Assembly: GCF_024227435.1 (NCBI RefSeq)
Contig: NZ_CP100445.1
Coordinates: 930,001 to 994,000, forward strand
DNA length: 64,000 nucleotides
Direction: 5' to 3'
Source: Natrinema caseinilyticum
GTDB taxonomy: Archaea > Halobacteriota > Halobacteria > Halobacteriales > Natrialbaceae
Positions 3,919 to 25,137 of this stretch are shown piece after piece. The first letter of the stretch is position 1, and the number at the start of each line of letters is the position of its first letter. The notes below the pieces were generated by a model, which saw nothing but the letters and a program-made list of their open reading frames with translations, was not told the DNA's origin and made no database searches. The position numbers and the translations under genes are program-made.

Positions 3919-4899
3919 CTACCCGACTTCCGACCGATACCACGCCATCGTCTCCGGCAGGTGTGCCTCGAGCGGTTGGTACTCGTATCCCAGCTCCTCG
4001 TTCGCTTTCCGGGACGTGTAGAACAGCCGTTTGGTCGCGAGGGTGGCCATCCGCCGATCGAACGGAAAGATCCGCCGATCGGCGACAGCGTCGACGAGTT
4101 CCGCCACCGGTCCGGCCGCACGGATCGCGGTCGGCGGAACGCGGATCCGCGCGGGGGATCCGTCGACGGCGTCGGCGATGCGCGACACGGCTCGGTCGTA
4201 CGTGAGGTTCTCGCCGCCGAGAATGTAGTGCTCGCCGGCGGTGCCGCGCTCGTAGGCCGCGAGCAGGCCGTCGACCACGTCCGAGACGCCGACGATGCTC
4301 AGGCCGCCGGGGAGGTGGGCGGGCATCGTCGGTTCGACGCCCATGGCGAGCAGTTGCGCGGTGAACGCCTCGTCGCCGGGTCCGAAGATCGACGTCGGAT
4401 GAACGGTGAGGGCATCCCCCCCGGTCCCGGCGTACCGGTCGACCAGCCCCTCCGCCTCGGCTTTCGACGCTTGATACGCACCGATCGGTTCGGCGACGTC
4501 GGTCTCGTCGGCGAACGCGTGATCACCGTTCGGACGACGTGTTCCGGACGTGCTGGTAAAGACCACGCGACCTGCGTCGGTGACACGGCAGGCTTCGAGC
4601 ACTCGCTCCGTGCCGTCGCGGTTGACAGTCCAGACCGTGTCCGGGCCGGCGCTCCAGAGCCCGATCCCAGCCAGGTGGAAGACGGCGTCGGCGCCGTCGA
4701 CGAGCGACCGGAGCGTCCCGTCGTCGAAGAGATCGCCGACGTACCAGTCGATCCCCTCGCGGTCGCCTCGATTCGAGGTCGGCCGGCTGAGTCCGCGCAC
4801 CTCCCAGCCGCGTTCGAGCAGGCGGTCACAGAGGCGAGATCCGAGGAAGCCGGTCGCGCCGGTGACCGCCGCGGTCTGCGTCTCTCCGGTCGCGGTCAT
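3919..4899 (-). CDS. NAD-dependent epimerase/dehydratase (extended SDR)
   Basis: 326 residues. The Rossmann motif TGATGFLGSR lies at residues 13-22, the catalytic YxxxK (YQASK) at 142-146 and the associated Ser in VFTSTSG near 115. This is the extended SDR layout used for nucleotide-sugar epimerases, reductases and dehydratases. It is the last gene of a three-gene operon. Its ATG overlaps the stop of the DUF362 gene by four bases, so translation is probably coupled. The likely role is nucleotide-sugar conversion for the glycan built by the neighbouring transferases. Dihydroflavonol-reductase-like members of this group act on other substrates, so the substrate is open. Confidence 0.85.
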   Translation of the reverse strand: MTATGETQTAAVTGATGFLGSRLCDRLLERGWEVRGLSRPTSNRGDREGIDWYVGDLFDDGTLRSLVDGADAVFHLAGIGLWSAGPDTVWTVNRDGTERVLEACRVTDAGRVVFTSTSGTRRPNGDHAFADETDVAEPIGAYQASKAEAEGLVDRYAGTGGDALTVHPTSIFGPGDEAFTAQLLAMGVEPTMPAHLPGGLSIVGVSDVVDGLLAAYERGTAGEHYILGGENLTYDRAVSRIADAVDGSPARIRVPPTAIRAAGPVAELVDAVADRRIFPFDRRMATLATKRLFYTSRKANEELGYEYQPLEAHLPETMAWYRSEVG

Positions 4900-5831
4900 C
4901 GACGGGCCTCGAGTTGTGGCGGAACGGCGTCACCGGCCACCGTGGCGTAGATTCGGTACGCGGTCGAGACGGCGGGATGCGTGTCGTCCGCCGGCGGGAG
5001 GTCGCCGTCCGGAATCCGGTCCCGGAGCCGATCGAAATCGACGGAGCTCCCGACGACCGTGACCGGTTCGGCATCGTCACCGCGGACCGACTCGAGTGCC
5101 GCGTCGGAACCGGGTGAGCGGCCGAGCAACGAGGTCGCGACCGCGTCGACGGCGGGAGCGGCGCCCGCAAACAGCGTATTCGCGGCCGCGGGTTCGCCGC
5201 CGAAAACCGTCGTCGCGTCGACGACGGCGGGACCGGGCTCGACGATCCGCGTCGTCGCGGCGGGCACTCGATCCGGGTCGTCAGCGCCCGCGACCAGCGA
5301 CGACAGGGTTCGCATCGCGCCCGCGACCGGTCCGTTCTCGGTCGGCCGAAGCGACGGCACGACGCTCACGGTACTCTCGAGGAGACGGGTCGGGACCGAG
5401 AGCGAGAGCGAGCGGCCGTCGACCGAGCGAACGAACTCGGTTCGTGGTTCGTCGGCCAGGTCGACGAGTTCGGCATCGGACCGCTCGAGCAGGTCCGTAT
5501 AGCCGAGGTACTTCGCCGTTCGGTCGAACGCCATGCGGTCGTCGCTCGCGCCGGCGACGGCGATATCCGCGTCGGTCCACCGACGCAGGGTGGCGACGAT
5601 CGCCCCGATTACGGCCGGGTCGGTCACCATCCCGGACGAGGGGTGAAACGGGTAGTGCGCGTCCGGGACGAGCGTGATCCGGTCGGCGCTCGAAACCGCC
5701 TCGAGGTCTGGCTCGAGCACGGCACGAACGGGGTCCTCGAGCGCAGCCTGGCGGCCGTCGACGTCGGGGATCCAGCCGCCGCGGCGGTCGGCCGCATCGA
5801 CGCCGACCGCACGGACCCGCGCCTCGCTCAT
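4896..5831 (-). CDS. DUF362 domain protein
   Basis: 311 residues with the DUF362 layout: an early strand and loop around ITLVPDAHYP, a central Asp-rich part and a C-terminal segment ending in AYRIYATV. No ferredoxin CxxCxxC cluster is visible, unlike the DUF362 proteins fused to iron-sulfur domains. Start and stop overlap the genes on both sides by four bases, so it is the middle cistron of a Gfo/Idh - DUF362 - SDR operon. The biochemical role is not known. The tight coupling to two sugar-modifying oxidoreductases suggests a step in the same conversion. Confidence 0.75.
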   Translation of the reverse strand: MSEARVRAVGVDAADRRGGWIPDVDGRQAALEDPVRAVLEPDLEAVSSADRITLVPDAHYPFHPSSGMVTDPAVIGAIVATLRRWTDADIAVAGASDDRMAFDRTAKYLGYTDLLERSDAELVDLADEPRTEFVRSVDGRSLSLSVPTRLLESTVSVVPSLRPTENGPVAGAMRTLSSLVAGADDPDRVPAATTRIVEPGPAVVDATTVFGGEPAAANTLFAGAAPAVDAVATSLLGRSPGSDAALESVRGDDAEPVTVVGSSVDFDRLRDRIPDGDLPPADDTHPAVSTAYRIYATVAGDAVPPQLEARR

Positions 5832-6934
5832 AGCGTCACCTCCGGCGCCTCGAGTTCGTCCGCCCCGGCATCAGTCGCGGCCAGTTCGTAGGCCGCCTCT
5901 GCGAGGGCCAGCGTGCGGCGTCCGTCCGCGCCGTCGACCGGCGGCCGTTCGTCGGACCGGATCGCCTCACAGAAGTCGGCCAACGCCTCGTAGTGGGCCT
6001 GCAAATAGAACGTGGGGCCGAAGACGGTCGGCTCGTCGTTCGTGAATCGACTGACCACGTTCGAAAGGGCCGATCTGGCCGCATCCGCGTAGAACCGCTC
6101 CGGCAAGTGGTTCCGATTACTGATCGTCCCGGTCACGCCCTCGAGGCGCAGTCGGGTGTTGACGTCCGGCAGCTGCTCCCACTGGTAGGACCCGCAGTGG
6201 AGCGTGACCGTCGTTCCCGTCTCCGGAGCCTCCATGAGGACCGTCGCGGCGTCCTCGACGTCGACGTCGAGCGACCGTCCCATCGAGGCGTCTCGAACCT
6301 CGAGGTCGCCGAACAGCCACTCGAGGACGTCGAAACAGTGGACGCCGAGCTCGAGCAGTGACCCGCCGCCGGCCGCGTCGGGGTCCAGCGGCCACGACGG
6401 CGGTGCGTTCGCGACCGGCGGCCGACCGAGCGGCCCGTCGTTGAGTCGGGTGATCGACGCGTAGGGGACGTGCCCGACCCGCCCGGCGTCGTAGGCCTCC
6501 TTGACCCCGACCATGTCCGGCTGGTAGCGTAACGTGTGATCGACACCGACCGCGATCCCGGCGTCGTCGGCGGCCTCGAGTAACTCGTCGGCCTCCTCGG
6601 TCGAGCGGGCGAGGGGTTTCTCGACGAAGACGTCGACGCCGAATTCGGCGGCCCGCCGGACGGCCTCGGCGTGGAGAAACGGGGGCAAGGCGACGACCGC
6701 GGCGTCTATCTCCTCCGACTCGAGCAGCGTCGCGTAATCGTCGTACGTCCGTGAGACCCCGGCACGTTCCGCTCGAGTTCGGTTCTCGGGGACGGCGTCG
6801 GCCGCCGCGACGACCTCGACGTCCGGCATCGCCGACGCGGATTTCAGGTGTACCATGCCGATGTTTCCGACGCCGAGGACGCCAAGCGAGAGCGCACTCG
6901 AGTCGGACCATCGATTCAAAATCGGTAGTGCCAT
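5828..6934 (-). CDS. Gfo/Idh/MocA family oxidoreductase
   Basis: 368 residues from the ATG at 6934. The longer open frame upstream is rejected because it would run across the promoter motif. The N-terminal Rossmann motif GVLGVGNIGMVH starts near residue 15, the family EKP motif lies in FVEKPLARS near 110, and the catalytic-region His sits in GVHCFDVLEWLFGD. The family oxidises or reduces sugars and nucleotide sugars with NAD(P). This is the first gene of the overlapping operon with DUF362 and SDR proteins, so a multi-step nucleotide-sugar modification is likely. The promoter region holds ATAACAAAGCCC 35 bases before the start. Confidence 0.88.
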   Translation of the reverse strand: MALPILNRWSDSSALSLGVLGVGNIGMVHLKSASAMPDVEVVAAADAVPENRTRAERAGVSRTYDDYATLLESEEIDAAVVALPPFLHAEAVRRAAEFGVDVFVEKPLARSTEEADELLEAADDAGIAVGVDHTLRYQPDMVGVKEAYDAGRVGHVPYASITRLNDGPLGRPPVANAPPSWPLDPDAAGGGSLLELGVHCFDVLEWLFGDLEVRDASMGRSLDVDVEDAATVLMEAPETGTTVTLHCGSYQWEQLPDVNTRLRLEGVTGTISNRNHLPERFYADAARSALSNVVSRFTNDEPTVFGPTFYLQAHYEALADFCEAIRSDERPPVDGADGRRTLALAEAAYELAATDAGADELEAPEVTL

Positions 6935-6961
6935 CTGCCCGAAACCCGGCCGGCTGCGGGC

Positions 6962-6969
6962 TTTGTTAT
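6962..6969 (-). promoter_or_regulatory. Island promoter motif ATAACAAA
   Basis: A perfect ATAACAAA, followed by GCCC, begins 35 bases before the ATG of the Gfo/Idh gene on the minus strand. No other TATA-like element is visible in this GC-rich interval, so the motif is the best candidate for the core promoter. Confidence 0.6.
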
Positions 6970-7115
6970 CATCGCCGTACCCCTCGTCCCCCAGGAGTAG
7001 TACCTGCATTCGGGCGACCGACATCAGTCCCAGCGTCCGAGCGACGGATACCAGTCCCAGCATTCGGCGACGGGTACCACCGACCGGCGGCCCCCGTCAC
7101 CGCCGTCTCGACGCG

Positions 7116-8060
7116 TCAGCTCCAGCTCGCCGTCGCGCGCTCTCCCGCCGTCGGCGGCTCCGTGATTCGACCGGCGACCCCGGCCATCGTCTCGACGGTG
7201 AGGTCCGTCTCGGTCCGTCTGCGCTCGAGGTGCGACAGGATCGCGCGCATTCGCCGATCGTCCCGCTGGTGAGTCAGGTTGTTCGGATGAAGCCACATGT
7301 GAAAGAGACCGTCGGTCCGGGCCGCCTCGTCGATTCCGCGGCGTGCGAGGACGACCATCGGATCCTCCCAGATCGACTCCGCGACCGTCCGCGCCGCCCC
7401 TTCGAATCCGAAGAGGAACATCGAGGCCGGAACGTTGACGAGCCCGTACTCGTCGACGGTCGGGGCGACCAGCATCGACCGATCCCGAATCGCGGAGTCG
7501 AACACGCCACGAACGCCGTCGCGGGTCGGCGATGCACCCCGATACGCTGTAATCCCGTATTCGGCCAGCACGTCGCGGTGGCCGATGTCGTTGCGCGGAT
7601 AGATGAACGAGTCGATCGACCGGTCCCACTCGGCCGCGAGTTCGCCACAGCGCTCGAGTTCTGCGACGGCGAGTTCTCGATCCGTCTCCGGTCGCCCGAA
7701 CAGGACGTGGGAGAACGAGTGGCTTGCCAACTCGTGATCGGCGTCGGACTCGAGGACGCCGCGGACAAGGTCCCTCCCGAACCGGAGGTCCTCGCGATCA
7801 GCCCAGTCGGTTCGTTCGCGATCGAACCAGCCGTCCGGGGCCGGATACGCCGCGTGGCCGCCATCGCAGTCCTCGAGCATGAGATGACCGACGACGGCCC
7901 AGGTGGCCGGCACGTCGAACTCCTCGAGTAATTCCAGCATGGATTTCCAGCCCCGGCGGCCGGATTCCACCCGTTCGATCGGCGGTTCGGGGAGATCGTG
8001 AAATCCCCACCCGAGTTCGGCATCGAGCGAGATTACGACGCTTCCCACGGATTCCACCAC
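7116..8060 (-). CDS. Polysaccharide deacetylase (NodB-like)
   Basis: 314 residues from a GTG at 8060 (a second GTG follows directly at 8057). NodB-fold elements include the metal-Asp strand SLDAELGWG near residue 12, FDVPATWAVVGHL near 50, the His pair in ASHSFSHVLF near 115, and YPRNDIGHRDVL near 150. Enzymes of this fold remove N- or O-acetyl groups from polysaccharides. No signal peptide is present, so a cytoplasmic, lipid-linked substrate is more likely than mature capsule. An ATG at 8077 lies at the leaderless position relative to the promoter motif but is out of frame and opens only a short reading frame. The true start among the GTG codons is therefore uncertain. Confidence 0.83.
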   Translation of the reverse strand: MVESVGSVVISLDAELGWGFHDLPEPPIERVESGRRGWKSMLELLEEFDVPATWAVVGHLMLEDCDGGHAAYPAPDGWFDRERTDWADREDLRFGRDLVRGVLESDADHELASHSFSHVLFGRPETDRELAVAELERCGELAAEWDRSIDSFIYPRNDIGHRDVLAEYGITAYRGASPTRDGVRGVFDSAIRDRSMLVAPTVDEYGLVNVPASMFLFGFEGAARTVAESIWEDPMVVLARRGIDEAARTDGLFHMWLHPNNLTHQRDDRRMRAILSHLERRRTETDLTVETMAGVAGRITEPPTAGERATASWS

Positions 8061-8259: not shown

Positions 8260-8316
8260 GCGCTCATCGGGCGACCGGAATGACAGCAGGCGTTGTTGAC
8301 GTCTCAGAATACAATC

Positions 8317-9909
8317 ATGAGCGGATATCAAACCTCCTCCGAGCGAGCGTTCGTGCTCGGACTCGACGGTGTGCCGTGGAGACTTATCGAACGATGGAGC
8401 AGCGAGGGCGAGCTTCCCGCCTTCGCCCGATTGCGTGAGGAGGGGGCCGCCGGCCCGCTGGATAGTACTCGCCCGCCGACGACGCCGCTGGCGTGGCCGT
8501 CGATCGCGACGGGAGTCTGGCCGGATAAACACGGAATCTACGGCTTTCAGAACCTCTCTTCGGAATACAGCCACGAAATGTACACCAGTCAAGATTTCGC
8601 CCAGCCCGCCCTCTGGGACCAACTCGGGCCCGCACACGTCGGGAACGTGCCGATGACCTATCCGGCCCACGAGATAGACGGAACCATGGTCACGGGGATG
8701 ATAACGCCCTCGACCGACCGAGAGTACACGCAGCCGCCGGATCTGCGAGACGAAATCGATTCGCGCATCCCGAACTACGAGATCAGCCTCGACTACCCCG
8801 AGTACGCCGACCGATTGGACGACTTCCAGGTCGCCGTCGACGATATGCTCGCGAAGCGCCGCACCCTGATGCGCATCCAAATGGACCGCGCCGGGGCGGA
8901 CTGGCAGTTGTTCTTTTTCGTCTTCACTGCGCCCGACCGGTTCCAGCACCTCGTCTGGGACATGGACAAACTGCTGGCCCACTACAAGCAACTCGACGAC
9001 ATTCTCGCCGAAGTCATCGAATACACCGACGATCACGATGCAGACCTCTACGTCGTCTCGGATCACGGATTCGGGCCGATCGATGCGCTCGTCTACGTCA
9101 ATCGGATTCTCGAGCGGGAAGGCTACCTGGTCCGGCGAGACGACGACGGCACTCGCGGGGCGCTCGCGAGCCTCGGAATCTCCCGGGACGCCATCACGGG
9201 CGCGCTCAACCGGGTCGGGATCACCGAAGAGGCGCTCGTCCAGTCGCTCCCCCGACGTCTCGTCGACTCCGTCGCCGAGCAGATTCCCGGCGATCACGCC
9301 CTCTACGACGTCGACTTCGACCAGACCGTCGCGTTCGTCCACGACACGGGCAACTGCTACATCAACGACACGGACCGGTTCGACCGCGGCGTCGTCTCGC
9401 CGAGCGAGGTCCCGACTGTCAAGGCGGAAATCAAGGACGCGCTCGAGTCGGCGACCGGTGCAAACGGCGAGACGCTCCTCGAGGTGTTCGACGGCGACGA
9501 CCTGTTCCCGACGGACGACGGGTCGCCGGATCTGGTCGTCGGCGGTCGAGGGTCGTTCGAGTCCCGGAGTGCGGTTTCGGATCAGGTACTCGGCGATACG
9601 GGGACCTACGATGCGAGCCACCGCAGCGAAGGGATCGTCCTCTGTCGCGGCCCCTCGATCGAATCCGACGCGACGTTGCACGGCGCTCGCGTGGTCGACG
9701 TCGCCCCGACGCTGCTCCACGGGATCGGCGAACCGGTACCCGAAAACACGGACGGCCGGGTACTGTTCGACGCTTTCGCGAAAGACGCACAGCCGGCGGA
9801 AACGAAAGTGGAGTGGACGACGGTTTCACAGACCGAGAGCGATGCCGAAGTCGACGACGACTTCGACGACGTCGAGGACCGCCTGAAAGGACTCGGCTAC
9901 ATGGAGTGA
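8317..9909 (+). CDS. Alkaline-phosphatase-superfamily phosphodiesterase/phosphotransferase (first paralogue)
   Basis: 530 residues from the ATG at 8317. The frame is open from 8293, but only via TTG codons. Metal and nucleophile regions of the AP superfamily are visible: FVLGLDGVPWRLI at the N terminus, PLAWPSIATGVWPDKHG near residue 55 (Thr as likely nucleophile), YVVSDHGFGPID near 245, and the late His in YDASHRSEG near 435. There is no signal peptide, so it is predicted cytoplasmic. Nucleotide-pyrophosphatase/phosphodiesterase relatives hydrolyse or transfer phosphate esters. In a glycan locus it may act on nucleotide sugars or polyprenyl-linked phosphates (inference). A clear paralogue lies at 33380. 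Confidence 0.85.
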   Translation: MSGYQTSSERAFVLGLDGVPWRLIERWSSEGELPAFARLREEGAAGPLDSTRPPTTPLAWPSIATGVWPDKHGIYGFQNLSSEYSHEMYTSQDFAQPALWDQLGPAHVGNVPMTYPAHEIDGTMVTGMITPSTDREYTQPPDLRDEIDSRIPNYEISLDYPEYADRLDDFQVAVDDMLAKRRTLMRIQMDRAGADWQLFFFVFTAPDRFQHLVWDMDKLLAHYKQLDDILAEVIEYTDDHDADLYVVSDHGFGPIDALVYVNRILEREGYLVRRDDDGTRGALASLGISRDAITGALNRVGITEEALVQSLPRRLVDSVAEQIPGDHALYDVDFDQTVAFVHDTGNCYINDTDRFDRGVVSPSEVPTVKAEIKDALESATGANGETLLEVFDGDDLFPTDDGSPDLVVGGRGSFESRSAVSDQVLGDTGTYDASHRSEGIVLCRGPSIESDATLHGARVVDVAPTLLHGIGEPVPENTDGRVLFDAFAKDAQPAETKVEWTTVSQTESDAEVDDDFDDVEDRLKGLGYME

Positions 9910-10014: not shown

Positions 10015-11412
10015 TCAGGATTGCACTCGAGGGAGCGAGACGGTTATCCTGTTTCCGGTTTCGGACCGGTCGAACGCGATGTGGCCGTCCGAGAGGTCCA
10101 CGGCCCAGTAGACGAGCCACAACCCCAGCCCGGACGTGTGGTACACGTCGTCCATCTCCCAATCCCCCGTCAGGACGCGAAACTCGACTTCCGGTATCGG
10201 CGGACAGCTATCCTGAATTTCGACGTCGATCGTCTCCGGATTGCGACGAATCGTAACGGACAGTTCCGGGAGACCGTCCGGTTGGTGCTGGATCGCGTTC
10301 TCGAGGAGTTCGGAGAGGGCATCCTGGATCTCGGAGACCGTACAGGCGACCGCCGATTCGGGACCCGTCCGTTCGATCGTCACGTCGGGGTACCGGTCCA
10401 GGGTCGTCTCGATCGCCCTGGATGCGACCGCGACGAGGTCGCTCGACTCCGGGACCGGCCGGTCGCTGAGCAACTCGATGATTTCTCGTTGCTTCGCGGT
10501 GGTATCGAGGAGTTCCTCCCCTTGCCGACGGATGGTCTCAGCACGTCGGTGAAACGGGTCGTCGGCTTCGTCGGCGATGCACTCGGCGTTGCCGAGAATA
10601 ACGGCCAGATCGTTTCGTAAATTGTGTCGAAGGAAGTTGTCCATGACCGTCAGTTGCCGTTCCCGTCGCTGTCGGTCCGTAATGTCCTTGCTGAACCCGA
10701 CGATTCGAACGACCTCGCCGTCTTCGAAAAGCGGGTCCGCTCGCACCCAGACCCACCGCTTGTAGTCCGTTTCGGGATCGACGCGATACTCGAGGTCGAC
10801 CGACTCACCCGCCGACGCGCGGGCCATGGCCTCGCGAACCGTCTCCGCATCGTCGGGATGGACGAGGTCGAGGAAGCTTCGCGGATTCGCCTCGAGCGAC
10901 TCGACCGACTGTCCGAAGACGTCTTCGTAGGCGGGATTGACGAAGAGCACGTCGGTCCAGTCGTGATTGAACATCCACAGGACGTCGCCGACCGTACCGG
11001 CGATCGTCCGCAGTCGGCTCTGAGCGTCCCGTCGTTCTCGCTCCGCGATAACCTGCTGCGTGATGTCCCTGGAACTGACGACGTATCCGTCCAGGGCGTC
11101 GTTCGGAGGGTTCGTAAACCGGCTCTCGAGCCACACCCACTCGTCGTTTGGCGTGAGGTGCCGATAGCGAACCGTCGACGAGGACCGGGCGACCTCGCTT
11201 ATCTGGCCGAAGCGATCCGCGACCACATACCTGTCGTCCGGATGGATGTATTCGATCGCGGATTCGTCGATCAACTGATCCGGCTCGAAGCCGAGGATTG
11301 ACGCGCTCGCCTCGTTTACATACACGTACGTACCCGCTTCGTCGACGATGGCGAGTTTATCCTGCGCATACTCGAGCAAGACGGTGCCCAAATCGCCGAT
11401 TTTCGGGTCCAT
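10015..11412 (-). CDS. PAS-domain sensor histidine kinase
   Basis: 465 residues from the ATG at 11412; an upstream TTG start is less likely. Two PAS domains lie at about residues 10-125 and 135-255 (the first around YVNEASASILGFE, the second around FVNPAYEDVFG), each ending in a PAC-like stretch. The phospho-acceptor box is LRHNLRNDL near 280. The HATPase domain has its N box at ENAIQHQPDG near 385 and its G box at SGLGLWLVYWAVD near 435. No membrane segment is present, so it is a soluble sensor. No response regulator lies next to it. It may monitor redox or energy state to control the island, but its target is unknown. Confidence 0.9.
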   Translation of the reverse strand: MDPKIGDLGTVLLEYAQDKLAIVDEAGTYVYVNEASASILGFEPDQLIDESAIEYIHPDDRYVVADRFGQISEVARSSSTVRYRHLTPNDEWVWLESRFTNPPNDALDGYVVSSRDITQQVIAERERRDAQSRLRTIAGTVGDVLWMFNHDWTDVLFVNPAYEDVFGQSVESLEANPRSFLDLVHPDDAETVREAMARASAGESVDLEYRVDPETDYKRWVWVRADPLFEDGEVVRIVGFSKDITDRQRRERQLTVMDNFLRHNLRNDLAVILGNAECIADEADDPFHRRAETIRRQGEELLDTTAKQREIIELLSDRPVPESSDLVAVASRAIETTLDRYPDVTIERTGPESAVACTVSEIQDALSELLENAIQHQPDGLPELSVTIRRNPETIDVEIQDSCPPIPEVEFRVLTGDWEMDDVYHTSGLGLWLVYWAVDLSDGHIAFDRSETGNRITVSLPRVQS

Positions 11413-11631
11413 CGAGATAGTCTGATACAATTTCGAGACTGACTATGAAAAACGTACTGCTGTTACAGACTGCGGCGGGCGAGACGCGCACGGACGCGTC
11501 GTTCAGTCTCCGCAGGTGTCCAGCGGAAGGCGGTCGCCGTCCGTCCCGAGGGCGACCGTCCCGGCCTCGCTCGAATCGGACCGCGACGAACGCTCGAGGA
11601 AGCGCGAACCCCCGAGTCGAGACCTGGGCGG

Positions 11632-12939
11632 TTAACGATCGGACCGGACGAGTCGAAGCCCCGCTTTCGCCGTCGTCCAGGCCGGATAGACGGTGTTGTA
11701 GACGGAGTTGGGGGCGTTTCTCGCTCCGGCTCGGAGTAGCCGATGGGTGAGCGGCGGGCCCGACGTGGAGATCAAGTCGTCCAGATCGGCGTCGTCGAGC
11801 CACTCGAAGAAGGACCGTTCGGCAGGCGTTGCGGGGTCGGTCTCGCGTGCGCGGTCACGAATATCGGCCCACATGTGGCGTTCGTCCTGTCCGAGGACCC
11901 AGTCGCCGCGCTCGAGTGACCGGCGGAGGTCGTCGTAATCCGCATCGGAGAACGGATACCCGTGGTCCGACGGCTCGAGCCCGGCCAGACGGAGGCCAAC
12001 GGCGGTCCGATAACACTTCTCACACTGGCCGCAGTTGCCGTCCATCCGGTCGTTGCAGGTCTGGAGTTGGAGCGTCGGGTCCTCGCTGCGGACGTAGTCC
12101 GCGATGAGGTCGAGGCGTTCTTGCCTGGTGAGTTCGTAGGCGTCGTGGTGGCACTCGGTTCCGGCCCACCTGACGCATTCGTCGACGTCGGGTCGGGACC
12201 CCCACTCGAGGTCGATCCCGTCCCAGTGGGTCGCGGCGACGTACAGATCCTCGATCCCGCGCGCGTAGGCCAACGGCGCACAGAGCCCGAGAAGCCCCAG
12301 CCCGTGACCGACGGAGCTGTACCAGCCGCCGTCGACGTAGCGCTTGTAGTGGGCGAGCAACATCGGATGATCGAGAAACGAAAGCATATTCGATTCGACG
12401 AACGCGGTCTCGAGGTCGTGGTCCTCGGCGAACCCGGAGACGCGCGTCCGGAGGGCATCCCACTTCCCGTCGTCGGCCGCGTCCGGCGTGATCGTCCACC
12501 CCCGAATGCTGATTACCGTCGGCGACTCCTCGCGGTGGCGAACGTACGAACTCGTCGAATCGACGCCGCCGGTAAACAACAGGCCGCTCTCGTCTCCCGG
12601 GTCGGGATCCGGGTCGATCGTCCGGCGCGCGTAGAGCGTCCCGCCCTCGAGGAAGTCGTGCATCTCGCACAGCGACGCCTCGACCTCCTCGAGGGCGCGC
12701 GCGAAGGTCCCATCGACCTCGTCGACGTAGACGTCGGCTCCGTTGGCCCACGCGACCGGACAGAGCTGTGCGAGGACGGGAATCACGAGGACGCCATCGG
12801 GGACGTCTTCGATCGGTACGTCGTACCGAGTTCGAAACGGTTCGTCAGTGATGAACCGCTCGAGGTCGGTCGAGGCGCGAACCGAACACTCGAGGGTCTC
12901 GCCGTCGGCGGTGAGTTGGTCGATGAGGATCGATGACAT
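11632..12939 (-). CDS. PP-loop ATPase-like protein with Cys cluster (glycan-locus type, function unknown)
   Basis: 435 residues. A PP-loop LLFTGGVDSTSSY has its core at 123-128, matching the SGGxDS pyrophosphate-binding loop of adenylating enzymes (asparagine synthetase, QueC, NAD synthetase). A Cys cluster C-x7-C-x2-C-x2-C follows at residues 295, 303, 306 and 309, as in QueC and in some PP-loop amidotransferases. The N-terminal 115 residues have no obvious relative. It could adenylate a carboxylate on a sugar (uronic acid amidation) using an ammonia or sulfur donor, by analogy with WbpG-type sugar amidotransferases. That is inference from fold and context. It is divergent from the GT-C-like membrane gene. 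Confidence 0.75.
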   Translation of the reverse strand: MSSILIDQLTADGETLECSVRASTDLERFITDEPFRTRYDVPIEDVPDGVLVIPVLAQLCPVAWANGADVYVDEVDGTFARALEEVEASLCEMHDFLEGGTLYARRTIDPDPDPGDESGLLFTGGVDSTSSYVRHREESPTVISIRGWTITPDAADDGKWDALRTRVSGFAEDHDLETAFVESNMLSFLDHPMLLAHYKRYVDGGWYSSVGHGLGLLGLCAPLAYARGIEDLYVAATHWDGIDLEWGSRPDVDECVRWAGTECHHDAYELTRQERLDLIADYVRSEDPTLQLQTCNDRMDGNCGQCEKCYRTAVGLRLAGLEPSDHGYPFSDADYDDLRRSLERGDWVLGQDERHMWADIRDRARETDPATPAERSFFEWLDDADLDDLISTSGPPLTHRLLRAGARNAPNSVYNTVYPAWTTAKAGLRLVRSDR

Positions 12940-13274
12940 AGGTGGGAGACGTCGGTGTATCGGTCGACTGGATCACGACCTGCTACAAAAACCATCAGAA
13001 CCGTTGATCGGTCAGGCCTCGAGAAAGGGGACCGTAGCGTTCCGGCCGATATCGACAGGGACAGCATATATCGTCGTCCGTTACCGTGTGTGAAACCGAC
13101 ACGACTGGCCGGTGAGTGTGCCTTCACTGACGGCCAGACGAGAGTCCACGTTCGGTACAGGAGCGACAGCACCCGGTTTCGGAGGTAGGTTCTGTATAAC
13201 AAACCGCGACAGCGCCATCGACTGGGCAAACACATGCGTATCGAGACTGGCAGGGACGGCTCCGGTGAGAGTAC
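12940..13274. other. Divergent intergenic region
   Basis: 335 bp between the PP-loop gene and the membrane protein gene. It contains the ATAACAAA copy at 13196 and a 14-codon reading frame (13234-13278) just before the membrane protein. On the side of the PP-loop gene I see no clear TATA element; the poly-A/T stretch near 12985 (CTACAAAAACC) is the only AT-rich spot. Confidence 0.6.
13196..13203 (+). promoter_or_regulatory. Island promoter motif ATAACAAA
   Basis: A perfect ATAACAAA followed by CCGCG, 79 bases before the ATG of the membrane protein but 38 bases before the ATG of the short upstream reading frame at 13234. This fits transcription starting near 13225-13234. Confidence 0.55.
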
Positions 13275-13278
13275 ATGA
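13234..13278 (+). other. Possible leader reading frame (14 codons), coupled by ATGA overlap
   Basis: ATG at 13234 opens the peptide MRIETGRDGSGEST and stops at a TGA that overlaps the ATG of the membrane gene (ATGA). GGTGAG lies just before the overlap and could act as a ribosome-binding site. The position of the ATG relative to the ATAACAAA motif fits a leaderless start. It may be chance. Confidence 0.3.
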
Positions 13279-15077
13279 GCCGATCGACGCTCAACGCGAC
13301 GGTCGCAGCCGGGTTTCTCGCGGTTTCGGTCGCGATTCTCGTCGCGAGAGCGAACCCTGCGACGAGTTACGAATCGTCAGTGTACGCGGGCGCTCCGACG
13401 ATCACCTGGTTCGGATTCGCACTCGCGCTCGCGATCGCGGTCGGAACGTGTCTCACGTGTCGCGGCCGCGCGCAGGGATACGGGATCGGCCTCGGTGCGA
13501 CGACGGTCACGGCGATCGTGAGCCTCCCCGTGATTCGGAACTACCACTACGCCGGAATGGGGGACGCGCTCACGCACCTGGGCTGGACGCGGGACATCGT
13601 GACCGGCGGCACCGCGCCCCACGAGCTGTTTTATCCCGGATTACATGCCATCGCGTCGACCCTGCACTTCGCCGGCGGTATCTCGATCGAGCGCGCCCTC
13701 CTGATCGGGATGGTCGTCCTGTTCGTACCGTTCGTGATCTTCGTGCCGCTGGTAGTCCGCGATATGGCCGGCGGTGGGCCGGCCGTCGGGTTCGCGGCGA
13801 TCGTCTCGTGGATGGTACTCCCGGTCAACAACATCGCGACACACATGGGCATTCACACGAACTCGAACGCGCTATTCGTCGTGCCCGCGGTCGTCTTCGC
13901 GCTCGTCGCCTATCTCCGCCGACGGTCGACGATCGAACGACTGCCCTTCGGTGCCTCGCCGTTCAGCGTCCTCATCTTTCTGACCGCGCTCGCCCTCCTC
14001 TTAGTCCATCCCCAGCAGATGTTCAACGTGGTCGTCTTGATCGGCGCGATAAGCGGCGTTCAGTACCTCGCCCGACGTCGCTTCGACGACCATCCCATGA
14101 TCGATCACCCGACGACGTACGTCCACACGATCAGCCTCGGAGGCATGTTCGGCCTCTGGGCGCTCGGCAACGAACGGTTCAGGCGAGCCGCAATCGGTCT
14201 CATCTCCGGACTGCTCTCGCAGGACGTCGGTGGCGGGTCGACCGTCGACCAGCGCGGGTCGTCGCTGACCGACATCGGCGGGAGCCTCAGCGAACTGTTC
14301 GTGAAAATGTTTCTCCCCATGGCTGTCATCGGCCTCATCGTCGGCCTCTCCATTCTGGTCGTCTGGCTCCGTCGGTCGAGCCTCGACAGGGAGGCTACGT
14401 CCTTCGTCAACTACGTCTCGCTCGCCCTGTTTCCGCTCTGTGGCATGTTTCTCCTCTACTTCCTCGGGACGCCGACGATGGCGTTCCGACAGATGGGCTT
14501 TATCTACGTGCTGTTGACGATACTCGCCGGCATCGCGCTGGCACAGTTCGTCGGCGGCCTCTCGAGGCTGATCACGACGCCCGGAGCGAACGCGGTTACG
14601 GCAGTCGTACTCGGTACCTGTCTCGTTCTCGGCCTGATGACGGTCTTCACGTCGCCGCTCATATACAATCCGGGTCAGCACGTGACCGAAGAGATGGTCA
14701 GCGGTTACGAGGACGGGTTGGATCACGGGGCGGAGGGCGTTCCCTACGCGGGGATGGGGTACGACCCGTACCGGTACGATCACGGAATCAACGGCCTCGC
14801 CGGCAGCGATACCTTGAGCGGTGGATCAGCAGCTACCGGCAGCGTAAACGCCACCGTCTTCAGCGAGGGGAACTACAGCGGTGCCTATCCCACCGGCGAA
14901 TACTACTTCGTCGTCTCTGAGTGGGACAGGACGAAAGAACTCGAGGTCTACGAGGAACTGAACTTCGACAGGGCCGCACTCGAGGGGCTCGAAACCGAGC
15001 CCGGCGCGAACAAGGTGATCTCGAACGACGAGTTCACGATGTATGCCGTCGACGACGAACCCCGGGCGACCGGCTGA
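13275..15077 (+). CDS. Multi-spanning membrane protein, GT-C-like (putative lipid-linked sugar transferase)
   Basis: 600 residues with about 11-12 hydrophobic segments, beginning with one at residues 8-25. The first loop carries YHYAGMGDALTHLGW with an acidic residue between helices, followed by LFYPGLHAIAS. This layout is typical of GT-C fold enzymes that use polyprenyl-phosphate sugars on the outer face. The C-terminal 120 residues form a soluble extracellular domain with Tyr- and Gly-rich turns. No close named family is recognised with certainty. An oligosaccharide ligase/polymerase or mannosyltransferase role fits the island. The start is the ATG overlapping the short upstream frame. Confidence 0.75.
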   Translation: MSRSTLNATVAAGFLAVSVAILVARANPATSYESSVYAGAPTITWFGFALALAIAVGTCLTCRGRAQGYGIGLGATTVTAIVSLPVIRNYHYAGMGDALTHLGWTRDIVTGGTAPHELFYPGLHAIASTLHFAGGISIERALLIGMVVLFVPFVIFVPLVVRDMAGGGPAVGFAAIVSWMVLPVNNIATHMGIHTNSNALFVVPAVVFALVAYLRRRSTIERLPFGASPFSVLIFLTALALLLVHPQQMFNVVVLIGAISGVQYLARRRFDDHPMIDHPTTYVHTISLGGMFGLWALGNERFRRAAIGLISGLLSQDVGGGSTVDQRGSSLTDIGGSLSELFVKMFLPMAVIGLIVGLSILVVWLRRSSLDREATSFVNYVSLALFPLCGMFLLYFLGTPTMAFRQMGFIYVLLTILAGIALAQFVGGLSRLITTPGANAVTAVVLGTCLVLGLMTVFTSPLIYNPGQHVTEEMVSGYEDGLDHGAEGVPYAGMGYDPYRYDHGINGLAGSDTLSGGSAATGSVNATVFSEGNYSGAYPTGEYYFVVSEWDRTKELEVYEELNFDRAALEGLETEPGANKVISNDEFTMYAVDDEPRATG

Positions 15078-15645
15078 CTCGTCACGGTCGTCACCACCGT
15101 ACCGGTTCGAAGCGGAACGCGTTTGCAGTTCCCCTTCGATCCGGGGACGGACTCGAGGAGACGGTTCAGTCTCGTTTTTCACGCGCGTGCACGAGGCGGC
15201 CGAAAGAACCGCGACCGGCGGAGGACGGAAGATGGGAAGACCGATGGACCAAGCGGCTGGCCCGAGCCATCGGGTGGAGGCCCGGACGCCTCCCTCGTCG
15301 CCGGGGTAACGGGTCTCCGTCGGGACGAGAAGTGAGTAAGACGCAATTACGTGACGGAAACGGCGGACTTGAGCGATCGAAACGGTCGATTCCTCGCGAC
15401 CGACTGCGAGAACGCGGAGATGGCGAATACGCGGCCCGGGACCCGCTCGAGTCGGATATATTCCCGTATTTCCGCGGAAAAAACTGTATTACTTGCCCGA
15501 AGTCAGGACTTCGAGACATTCGTATATCCAACACCGTAATGGCGTAATTTTTCCTAGTTTGTAAATCCATACCAACAATGTACGGATTATTTGTACATAT
15601 AGGCAAGGAAAAGTTTATGGGTGTAAGACGAGGTTGCGGGAATGT
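15078..15645. other. Intergenic region with AT-rich promoter end
   Basis: 568 bp. The first 400 bases show no convincing gene; the open frames there are basic and non-haloarchaeal in character. The last 110 bases are AT-rich and hold the inverted repeat ATGTAC-N9-GTACAT at 15578-15598 and the core promoter at 15607-15618 for the first beta-helix gene. Confidence 0.6.
15607..15618 (+). promoter_or_regulatory. Core promoter GGAAAAGTTTAT of first beta-helix gene
   Basis: A BRE-like purine run followed by TTTAT; the TTTAT starts 32 bases before the ATG at 15646, as expected for a leaderless transcript. It matches, apart from one extra A, the elements before the other two beta-helix genes. Confidence 0.65.
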
Positions 15646-16599
15646 ATGGCGCAGAACCCGCGTACGTCCGAGACGGATTCAACTCCGACTACAGGCCGTA
15701 ATACCAAATTTACCCGCCGTAACTACGTTCGCTCGCTCGCCGCGGTGGCGACCGCGACGACCGCACTCGGCGGGGCCGGTTCGGTTTCGGCCCAGGACGA
15801 CTACGAGGTCATCGAAGCTCAGGGACAGACGATCACCATCGATGCCGGTGAAACCTGGGAGAACAAGCTCGTCGACATGACGACCGGGCAGGACATCGTC
15901 ATCACCGCCCACAGCAGCGACTGGACGATCCGAAACATCGGTTTCAAAGGCGAGAACACGTCAGCCACAGGGACCGCCACCTTCGGAATCTCCGATACTG
16001 CCGGCGGAACGTGTACCGTCGAGAACGTGTATCTCGGCGACGGCTCGAGTACGGGCAACAGCAACCCGAACGGCCACGGCCAGACCGCTTTCTGGGTCGC
16101 ACCGGACCACTCGGGACACATCGACATCACGAACGTCAACATCCAAAACTTCGCTGACAACGCGATCTACGGTTCCGCTCCGGGTACCAACGGCGGTGGC
16201 ACGATCCACATCGATAGTAGCTTCGCTGCGAACTGTTACGTCTCGCACTTCCGACTGGCCACCGAAGGAAGCAAAGTCACGAACTCGAGCGTCTACGTCG
16301 ACGGCAGCGATGGCTACGTCGGCCGCGGTATCTGGGGCTGGGCCCCGGGCACGATCGAGGTCGAAGACTGCCAGATCGAAATGAACGGGCAGAACTCCGC
16401 CATCGTCGCCGGCGCGAACGGCAAGCCGACCGAACTCGTCGTCAAGAACTCCGACTACGACGAGAAAGCGGGCATCGCCGAACACGCTGGCTCGAACGTA
16501 CAACTCGGGGAGAAGGTCGGAACGAACCCCGAAGCCTTCATCCCCGAAGGCGTCCCGAGATCGCCGAAACGAGCCGCATCGGGGAGCAACGACAACTGA
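15646..16599 (+). CDS. Tat-exported right-handed beta-helix protein (short paralogue)
   Basis: 317 residues from the ATG at 15646 (leaderless relative to the promoter at 15607). The Tat signal RRNYVRSLAAVATATTALG lies at residues 24-42, with likely cleavage after SVSA at 49. The mature part starts with the paralogue-defining segment YEVIEAQGQTITIDAGETW. It continues as parallel beta-helix rungs (WTIRNIGFKG, CTVENVYLGDG, HIDITNVNIQNF). This fold is used by pectate-lyase-like polysaccharide lyases, epimerases and carbohydrate-binding proteins. No catalytic triad can be assigned. It lacks the C-terminal triple repeat of its two paralogues. It is probably secreted or surface-located and acts on the island's polysaccharide. 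Confidence 0.8.
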   Translation: MAQNPRTSETDSTPTTGRNTKFTRRNYVRSLAAVATATTALGGAGSVSAQDDYEVIEAQGQTITIDAGETWENKLVDMTTGQDIVITAHSSDWTIRNIGFKGENTSATGTATFGISDTAGGTCTVENVYLGDGSSTGNSNPNGHGQTAFWVAPDHSGHIDITNVNIQNFADNAIYGSAPGTNGGGTIHIDSSFAANCYVSHFRLATEGSKVTNSSVYVDGSDGYVGRGIWGWAPGTIEVEDCQIEMNGQNSAIVAGANGKPTELVVKNSDYDEKAGIAEHAGSNVQLGEKVGTNPEAFIPEGVPRSPKRAASGSNDN

Positions 16600-17090
16600 T
16601 CTTCTGACCCAGCCGTACTCCCTGGGAGACCCCCGCTGACGTTCTTTCCCTCCGACCGTCGGTCCCACCGACGTCTTCTCGCAATTTTCGGTCCCTCCTG
16701 ACGCATCGTTTCAGCAACTCGACTCCCAGCGGGTGGGGTGCTCGATCGACCGCCGTTCCCGCCGGGTCCCCTTCGTTCGCCGTAACTATCAGTTCGGCGA
16801 CCGACACATCGAGTCACTTTTCCGGGTGAATTTACCGCATCGATGCGGAGTAATATCGTATTACCGCCGATCGGCGAGCGGCCAATCGACCGACCCGAAC
16901 GTTCGACGCTCGCGGCTGCGCGAGTAATAGATATTTACCGGCCGTCACAGACGGTTTCTGAAGATATAATATTCCATGAGTCACCACAACTTATTCTTCT
17001 ATAAATAGTACAGGTAATATCTACAGTCTGTAAATTTTACGCAAAGATATGGGGAAAGTTTATACCGTTAGTTGCGTATTACCCGATTGC
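16600..17090. other. Intergenic region between two beta-helix genes
   Basis: 491 bp. The first 250 bases are GC-rich with no supported gene. An inverted repeat GTAATA-TCG-TATTAC lies at 16850-16864. The last 130 bases are AT-rich, with the inverted repeat TACAG-T-CTGTA at 17022-17032 and the core promoter at 17053-17063. Confidence 0.6.
17053..17063 (+). promoter_or_regulatory. Core promoter GGAAAGTTTAT of second beta-helix gene
   Basis: BRE-like GGAAAG followed by TTTAT; the TTTAT starts 32 bases before the ATG at 17091. It is identical over 11 bases to the element before the third paralogue at 22370. Confidence 0.7.
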
Positions 17091-18902
17091 ATGGCACGCG
17101 ACTCTTCGGTACCGGATGACGAGTCGATCGCCTCCACAGGCGCGGAGGCGGTCGGTGACGATAGTAACGACGGATTACTGCATCGACGATCGTATCTGAA
17201 GCTGGCCGGCGCGACCACGGCAGCGGCGACGCTCACGGGAACCGCGAGCGCCGCCGACGGGTACGACGTGATCGAAGCACGCGGCCAGACGATCCGCATC
17301 GGCCGCGGTGACACGTTCGAAAACAAACTCATCGACCTGACGACGGGTGGTGATTTCCTGATCTACGTCGAGGGGGGCAACTCGGTTATTCGAAATATCG
17401 GGTTCAAAGGGCTCTACCGCGGCAACGATTTCATGATCTCGATCAACGCCGGACCGGGTGACGTTCTCATCGAAAACGTCTACCTCGGCGACGGTGCAAC
17501 GAAAGAAGGCTCGAGTTTCGTTCACGGTCCCGGTGCCGTGTTCATGCACCGAGGGAGCGAAGCGGATCTCACCTTCCGTAACTGTAACGTACAGGGATAT
17601 CCGAACAACGGATTCTACTGTTCGAACACGCCCTACGGGGGCAGCGTCCGCTTCGAGAACTGCTTCGGCAAGAACAACGGCGTAACGACCTTCCGGTGTG
17701 GGAGCGAGGACGACGAAATCGTAAACTGCGTCGCGTACAACGACAACACCGACTACGGCCGCGGCTACGGCGGCTACGGCGAGACCAACGGCCGTCCCGT
17801 CTGGGTCTGGAACGGCGGGACCGTGACGATCCGAGACTCCCACTTCGCCGACGGACCGTACCCGTACGCGCTCGTCGCCGGCGCGAACGGGTCGTCCGGC
17901 AGCGTCGACTTCCAGAGCGGCGGGATTCGCGGACGGATCCGTCGCGCGAACGGATCGACCGTCTCCGTTTCCAGCGACGTCTCGAGCGATCCCGACCTTT
18001 CGATCCCGGACGGCGTTCCGACGTCGCCCGAGGCCGCTGCGGCCGGCGACGGATCGGTGACTTCGAGCGGCGACTCCGATACGGATCGATCGGACAGCGA
18101 ACCCTCCCAGCTTCCGAACGTCCTCCTCGTCGACGGCAGTCCCTCGGATGCGACCCGGTACGAATTCAGCGTCGACGGCGAAATCGAGCACTCGAACGAC
18201 GAAGGCGCGTCGATCGACGACGAGGACACGATCGACGGGAGCACGGTCTCCGGGAGCGTCGCCGACTGGAAAGACGCATTCCGGTTCGACGGCGAACTCA
18301 CCGACCTCACCGTCGACGGCCCCGGAACGGTGCTCGTCAACGGCGAACAGGTCCATCCCGCGGACTACGGCCAGCAGCTTCCCCACGTCCTCGAGGTCAC
18401 GGGGCCGGGCTCGCCGACGAGTTACGAAATTACGGTCGACGGCACGATCGAACTCGTCTCGGACGACGGGCCCACGGAGGATGCGACGACGATCTCGGGG
18501 TCGACCGTCCAGAGTTCGCTCAGCGAGGGCAGCCAGACCTTCCGATTTTCCGGTGCGTTGACGGACGTCACGTTTACCGACGGCGAAGCGGACGTCACGC
18601 TCGACGGAGAGTCGATCGATCCGAGCGACTACGGCGACCACGCGATGCTGCCACACGCGATCATCGTCGACGGGATCCAGGCGGATGGGCCGAGTACGTA
18701 CTCCTTCGAAGTCGAGGGAGCGGTCGCCAAAACGACCTACCGTGGCGCATCGATCGACGACGACGACGTGATCGAAGACGGCGCGGTTCGCGGCGCCGTC
18801 GGAAACTGGCGCGACGCGTACTGGTTCGACGGCGACATCACCGACTTCCGCCTCCGCGGCGACGCCGAAGTCGACGTCCAGTACAACGCACGCGACCAGT
18901 AA
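17091..18902 (+). CDS. Tat-exported beta-helix protein with three C-terminal repeats
   Basis: 603 residues from the ATG at 17091, chosen because it sits 32 bases after the core promoter; the frame is open slightly further upstream. The Tat signal HRRSYLKLAGATTAAATLTG is at 31-50 with cleavage after TASA. The beta-helix domain runs from about 58 to 310 and opens with YDVIEARGQTIRI. A Ser/Asp linker at 311-340 leads to three tandem repeats of about 85-90 residues (341-429, 430-519, 520-603). Each repeat ends in a pattern like FDGELTDLTVDG and a final beta hairpin. The repeats look like beta-sandwich carbohydrate- or matrix-binding modules; that is inference. It is a paralogue of the genes at 15646 and 20575. 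Confidence 0.82.
   Translation: MARDSSVPDDESIASTGAEAVGDDSNDGLLHRRSYLKLAGATTAAATLTGTASAADGYDVIEARGQTIRIGRGDTFENKLIDLTTGGDFLIYVEGGNSVIRNIGFKGLYRGNDFMISINAGPGDVLIENVYLGDGATKEGSSFVHGPGAVFMHRGSEADLTFRNCNVQGYPNNGFYCSNTPYGGSVRFENCFGKNNGVTTFRCGSEDDEIVNCVAYNDNTDYGRGYGGYGETNGRPVWVWNGGTVTIRDSHFADGPYPYALVAGANGSSGSVDFQSGGIRGRIRRANGSTVSVSSDVSSDPDLSIPDGVPTSPEAAAAGDGSVTSSGDSDTDRSDSEPSQLPNVLLVDGSPSDATRYEFSVDGEIEHSNDEGASIDDEDTIDGSTVSGSVADWKDAFRFDGELTDLTVDGPGTVLVNGEQVHPADYGQQLPHVLEVTGPGSPTSYEITVDGTIELVSDDGPTEDATTISGSTVQSSLSEGSQTFRFSGALTDVTFTDGEADVTLDGESIDPSDYGDHAMLPHAIIVDGIQADGPSTYSFEVEGAVAKTTYRGASIDDDDVIEDGAVRGAVGNWRDAYWFDGDITDFRLRGDAEVDVQYNARDQ
18111..18899 (+). repeat. Three tandem ~88-residue protein repeats (second beta-helix protein)
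   Basis: Repeat starts are LPNVLLVDG, LPHVLEVTG and LPHAIIVDG, and the shared core is YEFSVDG / YEITVDG / YSFEVEG. Each repeat has a late LTDLTVDG, LTDVTFTDG or ITDFRLRG segment, and the first two end in PADYG or PSDYG. Repeats are diverged at DNA level, so they are old. Confidence 0.75.
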
Positions 18903-24453: not shown

Positions 24454-25137
24454 ATCAGTAGCAGTGTGAGTAACCCGCATTGTAATGTCGGCGTTTACCG
24501 AGGCCAGACGGAGGCTACCGTTTCGAAGCGTTTTTGCGAGACAGCCCACCGCAGCGGGTCGGATCGGATTCGACGGCAGCACGTTCCAAATTGCAACCGC
24601 CATCGCACAAACGCTCGAAACACAGCCGGATGGCAGAGGAATGGATACGAGGGTCGATCACATCGCGTCCGGTGTGAGGACAGTATCTGCGGTCGCTTCG
24701 GTCGCCGTGTGAGAAGGCTCCCGCGCCTGGAACAGCTGCTGGCACGCGACTGTCCCGGTACTGAATGACGGTCGTCGGGAGCCATTCGGAGGTATGGAAC
24801 CCGATAATAAAAACCCTTCTCAGGGTCCGGTCGTCGGCGTCGGCCAACAATCCGGACGAAACTGGCTGTGCTCACCGTCGCCGAGACGGTAGCGACAGTG
24901 TTCGGCGACCGTCCGACCGACCCGCCGTCGCACGCACGAGGGCGTGTACCCGCGATCGAACGATCGGGGGCTCGGGGACAGCTACCGCTACCGGCCGTCC
25001 CACGCAGATGGAATCGATTTGCGACGCCACTGCTACCCCACCCCACGTACCGTGGCGCGAGGCTGCTGGAGCGGTCGTCGTCGACCGAGAATGGACGGCA
25101 TCGGCGACGATGCGCGACGGTCGTCGTCGAAACAGGA
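24454..25137. other. Long intergenic region, no gene supported
   Basis: 684 bp. Open frames on both strands are Arg/Ser-rich and lack the acidic composition of real genes here. The only distinctive spot is an A/T run near 24805-24815 (AATAAAAACCC), which could be a promoter or a transcription stop. No tRNA-like fold or insertion-sequence end is seen. Confidence 0.5.

Follow-up and report, generated by a model that had tools for sequence, protein, structure and literature searches.

What chemistry might a PP-loop protein carry out in the glycan locus of a haloarchaeon? The question is raised by an open reading frame of 435 aa (here called the target) in a 64,000-nucleotide stretch of the Natrinema caseinilyticum genome, which as a whole is referred to as the window. 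The target opens with ATG, and this start codon is considered right because relatives align from residue 1. The gene is present in a single copy in the host genome, and its dN/dS against seven congeners is 0.127-0.150; it is under purifying selection and represents a conserved, real gene.

Table 1. Features of the target and its surroundings (positions in the window)
Feature	Position	Strand	Basis
QueC-superfamily PP-loop protein gene (target)	11632..12939	-	ORF of 435 aa, predicted fold, profile, family alignment
PP-loop TGGVDS, residues 123-128	12556..12573	-	G125 and D127 in 28/28
Family signature WGSxPxxD ... HD ... TR-x2-K/R, residues 245-276	12112..12207	-	family alignment; R272 in 28/28
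Cysteine cluster C295, C303, C306, C309	12013..12057	-	profile comparison, family alignment
N-terminal alpha/beta domain (predicted), residues 1-114	12598..12939	-	predicted model; no family match; placed like QatC extension
Intergenic region between the divergent target and membrane-protein genes	12940..13274	.	ORF calls
600-aa polytopic membrane protein, predicted GT-C glycosyltransferase fold	13275..15077	+	synteny, phyletic pattern, fold
Epimerase gene	3919-4899	-	Pfam; flanks target in 27/41 loci
DUF362 gene	4896-5831	-	Pfam; flanks target in 27/41 loci
Gfo/Idh/MocA gene	5828-7063	-	Pfam; flanks target in 27/41 loci
Polysaccharide-deacetylase-like gene	7116..8060	-	Pfam, 22.7 bits, just under cut-off of 23.1
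Type I phosphodiesterase family gene	8293..9909	+	Pfam; at least 71% identity in 27/41 loci

The combination of a TGGVDS loop with four cysteines, described in an earlier sequence-only reading, was found as claimed, with the cysteines spaced C-x7-C-x2-C-x2-C and located after the loop. In an alignment of 28 archaeal and bacterial relatives, A63, G125, D127, R272 and all four cysteines are invariant, and position 275 is occupied by K or R in every member. P250 is retained in 26 of the 28, G124, N184 and G320 in 25, W206 and G213 in 24, and G247 in 23. The loop and the cysteine cluster are not a product of chance, since G125, D127 and the four cysteines are identical in 28/28 relatives. By analogy with QueC and QatC, and judging from motif and fold, the cysteines probably bind a structural zinc, as in QueC.

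The target gave no match to any Pfam, NCBIfam or PADLOC model at E ≤ 10, and the sole match in a sequence search of the PDB (E 1.2) is an unrelated protein. The sequence-only reading had seen features of both QueC and sugar amidotransferases in the target. The QueC half of this claim is borne out by the fold and the cysteine pattern, whereas the amidotransferase half is not: the profile comparison with the WbpG and AsnB families that it proposed gave no match, either with TIGR03573 (WbpG; also without a match elsewhere in the host genome) or with Asn_synthase. An AsnB-type amidotransferase was rejected on the lack of any PF00733, PF13537 or TIGR01536 match at E ≤ 10, and an NAD synthetase because the NAD_synthase and nadE models do not match the target.

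The AlphaFold2 model of the target, built with 34 relatives as input, has a pLDDT of 90.8 and a pTM of 0.88. When it was compared with the PDB by Foldseek, only QatC (two entries) and QueC were recovered below E 0.001. The VIA-align comparison gave the highest score for QatC (Z 13.7, rmsd 5.0, 301 residues, spanning model residues 1-380), followed by QueC (Z 12.2, rmsd 3.4, 185 residues), Cap9 (Z 10.2, rmsd 3.3, 169 residues) and the nitrile synthetase ArtA (Z 10.0, rmsd 3.2, 157 residues), with argininosuccinate synthase, LarE and TilS at Z 8.6-9.6. The same placement was obtained with hhalign, in which a 40-sequence alignment of the target family matched 23 archaeal QueC proteins with E 6e-10 and the cysteines in register, and nine haloarchaeal QatC proteins with E 4e-7 (both being two-profile E-values). 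In a tree of the core, a 100/100 branch parts the target family, together with one DUF6395 row, from QueC and QatC, in a tree with very long branches in three rows and a bootstrap that had not settled. The predicted model and the profile comparison place the target in the QueC superfamily, with QatC and QueC as its closest members and with a PP-loop Rossmann-like core and a four-cysteine site after the loop. Its relatives make up a separate, unnamed and new QueC-like family, with its own signature, GSxPxxD...R-x2-K, in addition to the cysteines. No paper on this family was found in the openly licensed PubMed Central literature. A survey of PF06508 from July 2026 (PMC13329287) probably lacks it, as the members scanned score below the cut-off, and the family goes unmentioned in those parts of the survey that were covered.

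The 115 N-terminal residues had been called novel. This holds in so far as no family match was found for them, but they are not clearly a new architecture, given the similarly placed extension of QatC. According to PMC13279940, the QatC extension is composed of four strands and three helices and is needed for defence. The whole-length structural alignment passes through it. At the sequence level, 25 of 100 column shuffles reached the score observed between the N-domains of the target and QatC, and 75 of 200 shuffles the score observed with the N-terminus of DUF6395. Sequence homology to either N-terminus was therefore rejected, and the whole-length hhalign overlaps in this domain were set aside, because the scores are at shuffle level. 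A domain common to the target and QatC is suggested by structure alone.

Among 125 genomes of the host family, Natrialbaceae, a match to the target was found in 113, of which 112 were counted as orthologues (at least 65% identity over the best stretch, a threshold chosen where orthologues and paralogues separate). One genome, G008, has only a 48% relative, and the gene is absent from 6/6 genomes of genus g2 and 2/2 of genus g7. Close relatives lie on contigs named Natrinema, Natronorubrum, Haloterrigena, Natrialba and others. At the level of the order, 58 of 243 sampled genomes gave matches, 12 of these in three other families. When 392 genomes across the phylum were searched by profile, with at most four candidates scored in each, so that misses are no proof of absence, 23 gave a match, and two further archaea, G561 and G662, were added from other families. 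Relatives annotated as hypothetical proteins were found in plasmid records of Priestia, Pseudobutyrivibrio, Azospirillum, Gloeothece, Gemmobacter, Nostoc and Paracoccus; the family spans haloarchaea, other archaea and three bacterial phyla. A scan of viral contigs gave no viral relatives. In G056, G072 and the second copy of G070, the gene is split into two pieces with shifted frames and seems broken. A pyruvyl transferase domain, seen by eye as fused to the 558-aa relative of Paracoccus yeei, was rejected, since there was no Pfam match; in the shuffle comparison, the first 200 residues of this protein ranked sixth among 200 shuffles, with five shuffled copies ahead.

The proposed glycan-locus setting was confirmed: around the target, the window contains genes for glycosyltransferases, an epimerase, a Gfo/Idh/MocA protein, a polysaccharide-deacetylase-like protein and a phosphodiesterase. 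A partner gene encodes a 600-residue membrane protein and adjoins the target on the other strand in all 41 Natrialbaceae loci compared (L002-L042). Orthologues of both genes occur in 112 of the 125 genomes and neither is found in the same 13, three of which are incomplete assemblies (G020, G116, G124) and eight of which fall in two genera. The threshold for the membrane protein was 50% identity, again placed at the orthologue/paralogue gap; G003 and G004 carry only a 32-33% relative. G079 and G084 retain both genes, with more than 0.5 Mb of a single contig between them. The model of the membrane protein has a pLDDT of 76. Foldseek matched it to AftA (E 1.8e-4), and VIA to STT3 (Z 22.5, rmsd 4.2, 342 residues), archaeal AglB (Z 17.7) and ArnT (Z 17.6). 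By its predicted model the protein folds as a GT-C glycosyltransferase; the AglB of the host is encoded elsewhere (C1:1119517). The epimerase, DUF362 and Gfo/Idh/MocA genes also adjoin a 45%-identical Halorientalis relative of the target. This part of the locus is optional, since relatives of the DUF362 gene are present in 91/125 genomes.

Several other genes of the region deserve mention. A PAS-domain histidine kinase gene (10015-11430, minus strand) lies between the target and the phosphodiesterase gene in 7/41 loci, and ATP-grasp and/or GNAT genes occupy this position in several others. An AsnB-like protein with GATase and Asn_synthase domains (22630-24603, minus strand) is encoded in the same region; on visual inspection, the catalytic cysteine that normally follows the start is missing from its N-terminus. 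A relative occurs in only one of the 41 syntenic loci, so the gene is accessory, and its product could be an amidating enzyme in its own right. The proteins encoded at 15634-16599, 17049-18902 and 20575-22341, conserved beside the target in 39/41 loci, are related to one another and have nearly no Pfam matches; by eye, they look like secreted Tat substrates with a beta-helix-like part and repeated C-terminal domains.

The neighbourhoods outside Natrialbaceae were compared in eleven non-haloarchaeal contexts, i.e. Priestia, Pseudobutyrivibrio, Azospirillum, Gloeothece, Gemmobacter (two), Nostoc (two), Paracoccus, G561 (whose contig is only 3.4 kb long) and G662. Near copies were counted once; the Azospirillum context was taken from two of seven records and the Priestia context from two of four. 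In seven of the eleven, a pyruvyl transferase lies near the target relative, by annotation or by detection here. One and the same pyruvyl transferase subfamily recurs in five (Priestia, Azospirillum, Gloeothece, the first Gemmobacter copy and the archaeon G662), a raw count that covers three bacterial phyla and one archaeon. Its members score 127-279 bits in leave-one-out profile searches, compared to at most 23 bits for eight other pyruvyl transferases. The enzymes near the Pseudobutyrivibrio and second Gemmobacter relatives belong to other subfamilies and are outside the five. In the stretches seen of the Paracoccus, Nostoc and G561 contexts there is no pyruvyl transferase. In both Azospirillum records examined, the pyruvyl transferase and QueC-like genes form an isolated pair. 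The recurrence of this subfamily and the isolated Azospirillum pair suggest that the two genes work together and do not simply share polysaccharide loci. The partnership is not general, since the host genome has no PF04230 (pyruvyl transferase) gene.

In other haloarchaea, several relatives of 26-49% identity adjoin housekeeping genes, including tiaS with a DRG-type GTPase, dapB/dapD-like genes, dinB and MFS. In G216 (L090, 6822-10049), the relative lies on the opposite strand between dapD-like and dapB genes of lysine biosynthesis. A Pfam search of 112 neighbouring ORFs from 15 loci (17 were prepared and two dropped as close copies; the ORFs were picked by a rough composition score, so some are possibly shadows) revealed no family present near more than two members. 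A Halorientalis ATP-grasp gene has a relative in 13 loci, some of which overlap and represent the same place; an ATP-grasp/GNAT pair also adjoins one Gemmobacter member. Such neighbours hint at amide-bond chemistry; they are not general and do not constitute the main evidence. A PF01663 phosphodiesterase is encoded both near a Nostoc member (L168, 3484-5166) and near the haloarchaeal target (8293-9909), perhaps by chance. The members of the family may not all share one function.

The reading that we prefer, with a probability of roughly 45%, is that the target is a cytosolic QueC-superfamily ATP pyrophosphatase that modifies a precursor of a surface glycan, a carboxylate being adenylated and converted into an amide or a conjugate. 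A glycan role is favoured by the QueC-type fold, the replacement of the QueC substrate motifs by another conserved set, the glycan locus in Natrialbaceae, the presence-absence pattern shared with the GT-C gene and the one pyruvyl transferase subfamily that recurs as a neighbour. The TGGVDS loop, recognizable both as a motif and in the fold, would hold MgATP; from that point on, we infer the steps from QueC chemistry and from the neighbours. The substrate carboxylate would sit in a family-specific pocket formed by GSxPxxD...R-x2-K and be adenylated with release of PPi. It should not be 7-carboxy-7-deazaguanine, because the recognition motifs of QueC are gone. Attack of ammonia or an amine on the acyl-adenylate would then yield an amide or conjugate and AMP. 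In this locus the modified sugar may be a uronate, and in loci with an adjoining pyruvyl transferase it may be a pyruvate ketal; either group, carried on a glycan precursor in the cytosol, would agree with the neighbouring genes. The modified sugar might finally enter an exported glycan, in Natrialbaceae with the help of the divergently encoded GT-C glycosyltransferase, with which the target is associated. The amidation that the sequence-only reading had proposed is plausible on chemistry and context. The housekeeping neighbours in other haloarchaea and the lack of a pyruvyl transferase gene in the host genome speak against a glycan role, and the co-occurrence with the GT-C gene is that of adjacent genes, which were possibly lost together.

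One rival is an ATP-dependent ligase or amidase that acts on its own in small-molecule metabolism, for which the position in a glycan locus would be secondary. Relatives amid housekeeping genes and the dispersed, often single-gene contexts agree with such an enzyme. Two observations do not, namely that the target and the GT-C gene are present or absent together in all 125 Natrialbaceae genomes and that the pairing with a pyruvyl transferase recurs, and we hold it to be rather unlikely. Of comparable standing is a protein modifier resembling QatC, in which an ATP-activated small carboxylate is attached to a protein, e.g. a surface protein of the locus, at its N-terminus or on a side chain. QatC is the best whole-length structural match, N- and C-terminal extensions included, secreted Tat-type proteins that appear beta-helix-like by eye are encoded close by, and the YPDC residues of QueC are absent from QatC too (PMC13279940). 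What makes this reading improbable is that the PADLOC QatC model does not match the target (the best relative gives E 0.071), that the link between the N-domains fails by sequence, and that no QatB-type partner was found, the partners being instead the GT-C protein and the pyruvyl transferases. The Pfam matches of 20 scanned neighbouring ORFs suggest no qatA, qatB or qatD.

Thiolation, the other role raised from the sequence, finds no support. An enzyme of the LarE, TtuA, NcsA or MnmA type, placing sulfur on a sugar or tRNA, has the PP-loop fold in common with the target at lower Z (8.1-8.8). It is nevertheless very improbable, as the LarE (TIGR00268) and tRNA-thiolase models do not match, the best structural matches are amide- and nitrile-forming enzymes, and the QueC-type four-cysteine cluster after the loop stands in place of the three-cysteine site reported for LarE (PMC13329287). 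LarE was rejected on this basis. Hardly credible at all is a second QueC of the 7-deazaguanine (archaeosine) pathway, despite the QueC fold and a cysteine pattern in which the SGGxDS-type loop and C(x)8CxxCxxC of QueC correspond to TGGVDS and C-x7-C-x2-C-x2-C, the x7 spacing being present also in the archaeal QueC sequences compared. The host genome has a true QueC of its own (C1:3835757-3836386, 252 bits). PF06508 does not match the target, and the best relative scanned reaches 18.1 bits against a cut-off of 22, leaving no scanned member above it. In place of the QueC motifs YxQxHxxE, VPxRN and YPDC and of the SCY tyrosine that adjoins the first zinc cysteine (PMC13329287), the target family has a different conserved set. 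Canonical QueC identity was rejected on these grounds, and no orthology to a tRNA-modification or NAD synthetase gene, the outcome that would have counted against the sequence-only reading, was found.

In its broadest form, the preferred glycan reading would describe an archaeal and bacterial QueC-type family that activates carboxylates of glycan precursors (uronates in haloarchaea; in bacteria and other archaea, pyruvate ketals where the one pyruvyl transferase subfamily adjoins) to give amides, conjugates or even nitriles, masking negative charge by a new route of glycan modification; this we put forward as a speculative idea, possible though somewhat doubtful. Should the family act on glycans, ATP-driven carboxylate chemistry would be added to surface polysaccharides, and haloarchaeal glycobiology would gain a testable gene pair. 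The family may be an overlooked kind of sugar-modifying enzyme, the reaction being the conjectural part.

With the WbpG/WbuX N-acetyl sugar amidotransferases, the target shares the PP-loop, glycan loci and a possible amide-type chemistry. In enzymes of the WbpG type, which align to the family over the loop only (64 columns), the CxxC pairs lie N-terminal to the loop, unlike the cysteines of the target, which come after it; WbpG membership was rejected on this misplacement and on the lack of a TIGR03573 match. DUF6395 (PF19932) resembles the target in having a PP-loop followed by C-x8-C-x2-C-x2-C, and one of its members shares a Priestia plasmid with two members of the target family. This Priestia protein (L083, 18582-19898, minus strand) has an SGGVDS loop and then the same cysteine pattern. 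PF19932 does not match the target, its scores for bacterial relatives reach at most 15.1 bits against a cut-off of 25, and DUF6395 has a very long branch in the core tree. DUF6395 itself looks like one more QueC-like family, its Pfam domain being confined to the C-terminal part.

The QueC scaffold has reportedly been reused for protein modification in anti-phage defence. QatC, of the qatABCD defence system (PDB 9Y01, 9Y02), is the best structural match to the target; by the whole-length structural alignment, the two appear to be laid out alike, with a QueC core between an N-terminal extension and C-terminal helices, and the residues for 7-carboxy-7-deazaguanine in QueC are replaced in both. 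It differs in its active-site motif and in an N-domain dissimilar by sequence. The reaction of QatC, which also lacks the QueC YPDC residues, is still described as unresolved in PMC13279940, and the structural nearness of the target could help to find its substrate.

QueC itself (PF06508; PDB 3BL5, 2PG3) is the 7-cyano-7-deazaguanine synthase, which in its first step forms an acyl-adenylate with release of PPi and transfers the acyl group to ammonia, the final product being a nitrile. The target resembles it in the PP-loop fold, in the SGGxDS-type loop, in the C-x7/8-C-x2-C-x2-C cluster after the loop and in a basic residue at the position of the conserved lysine of QueC. Unlike QueC, it has extra N- and C-terminal parts, its own signature GSxPxxD...R-x2-K and relatives in glycan contexts.
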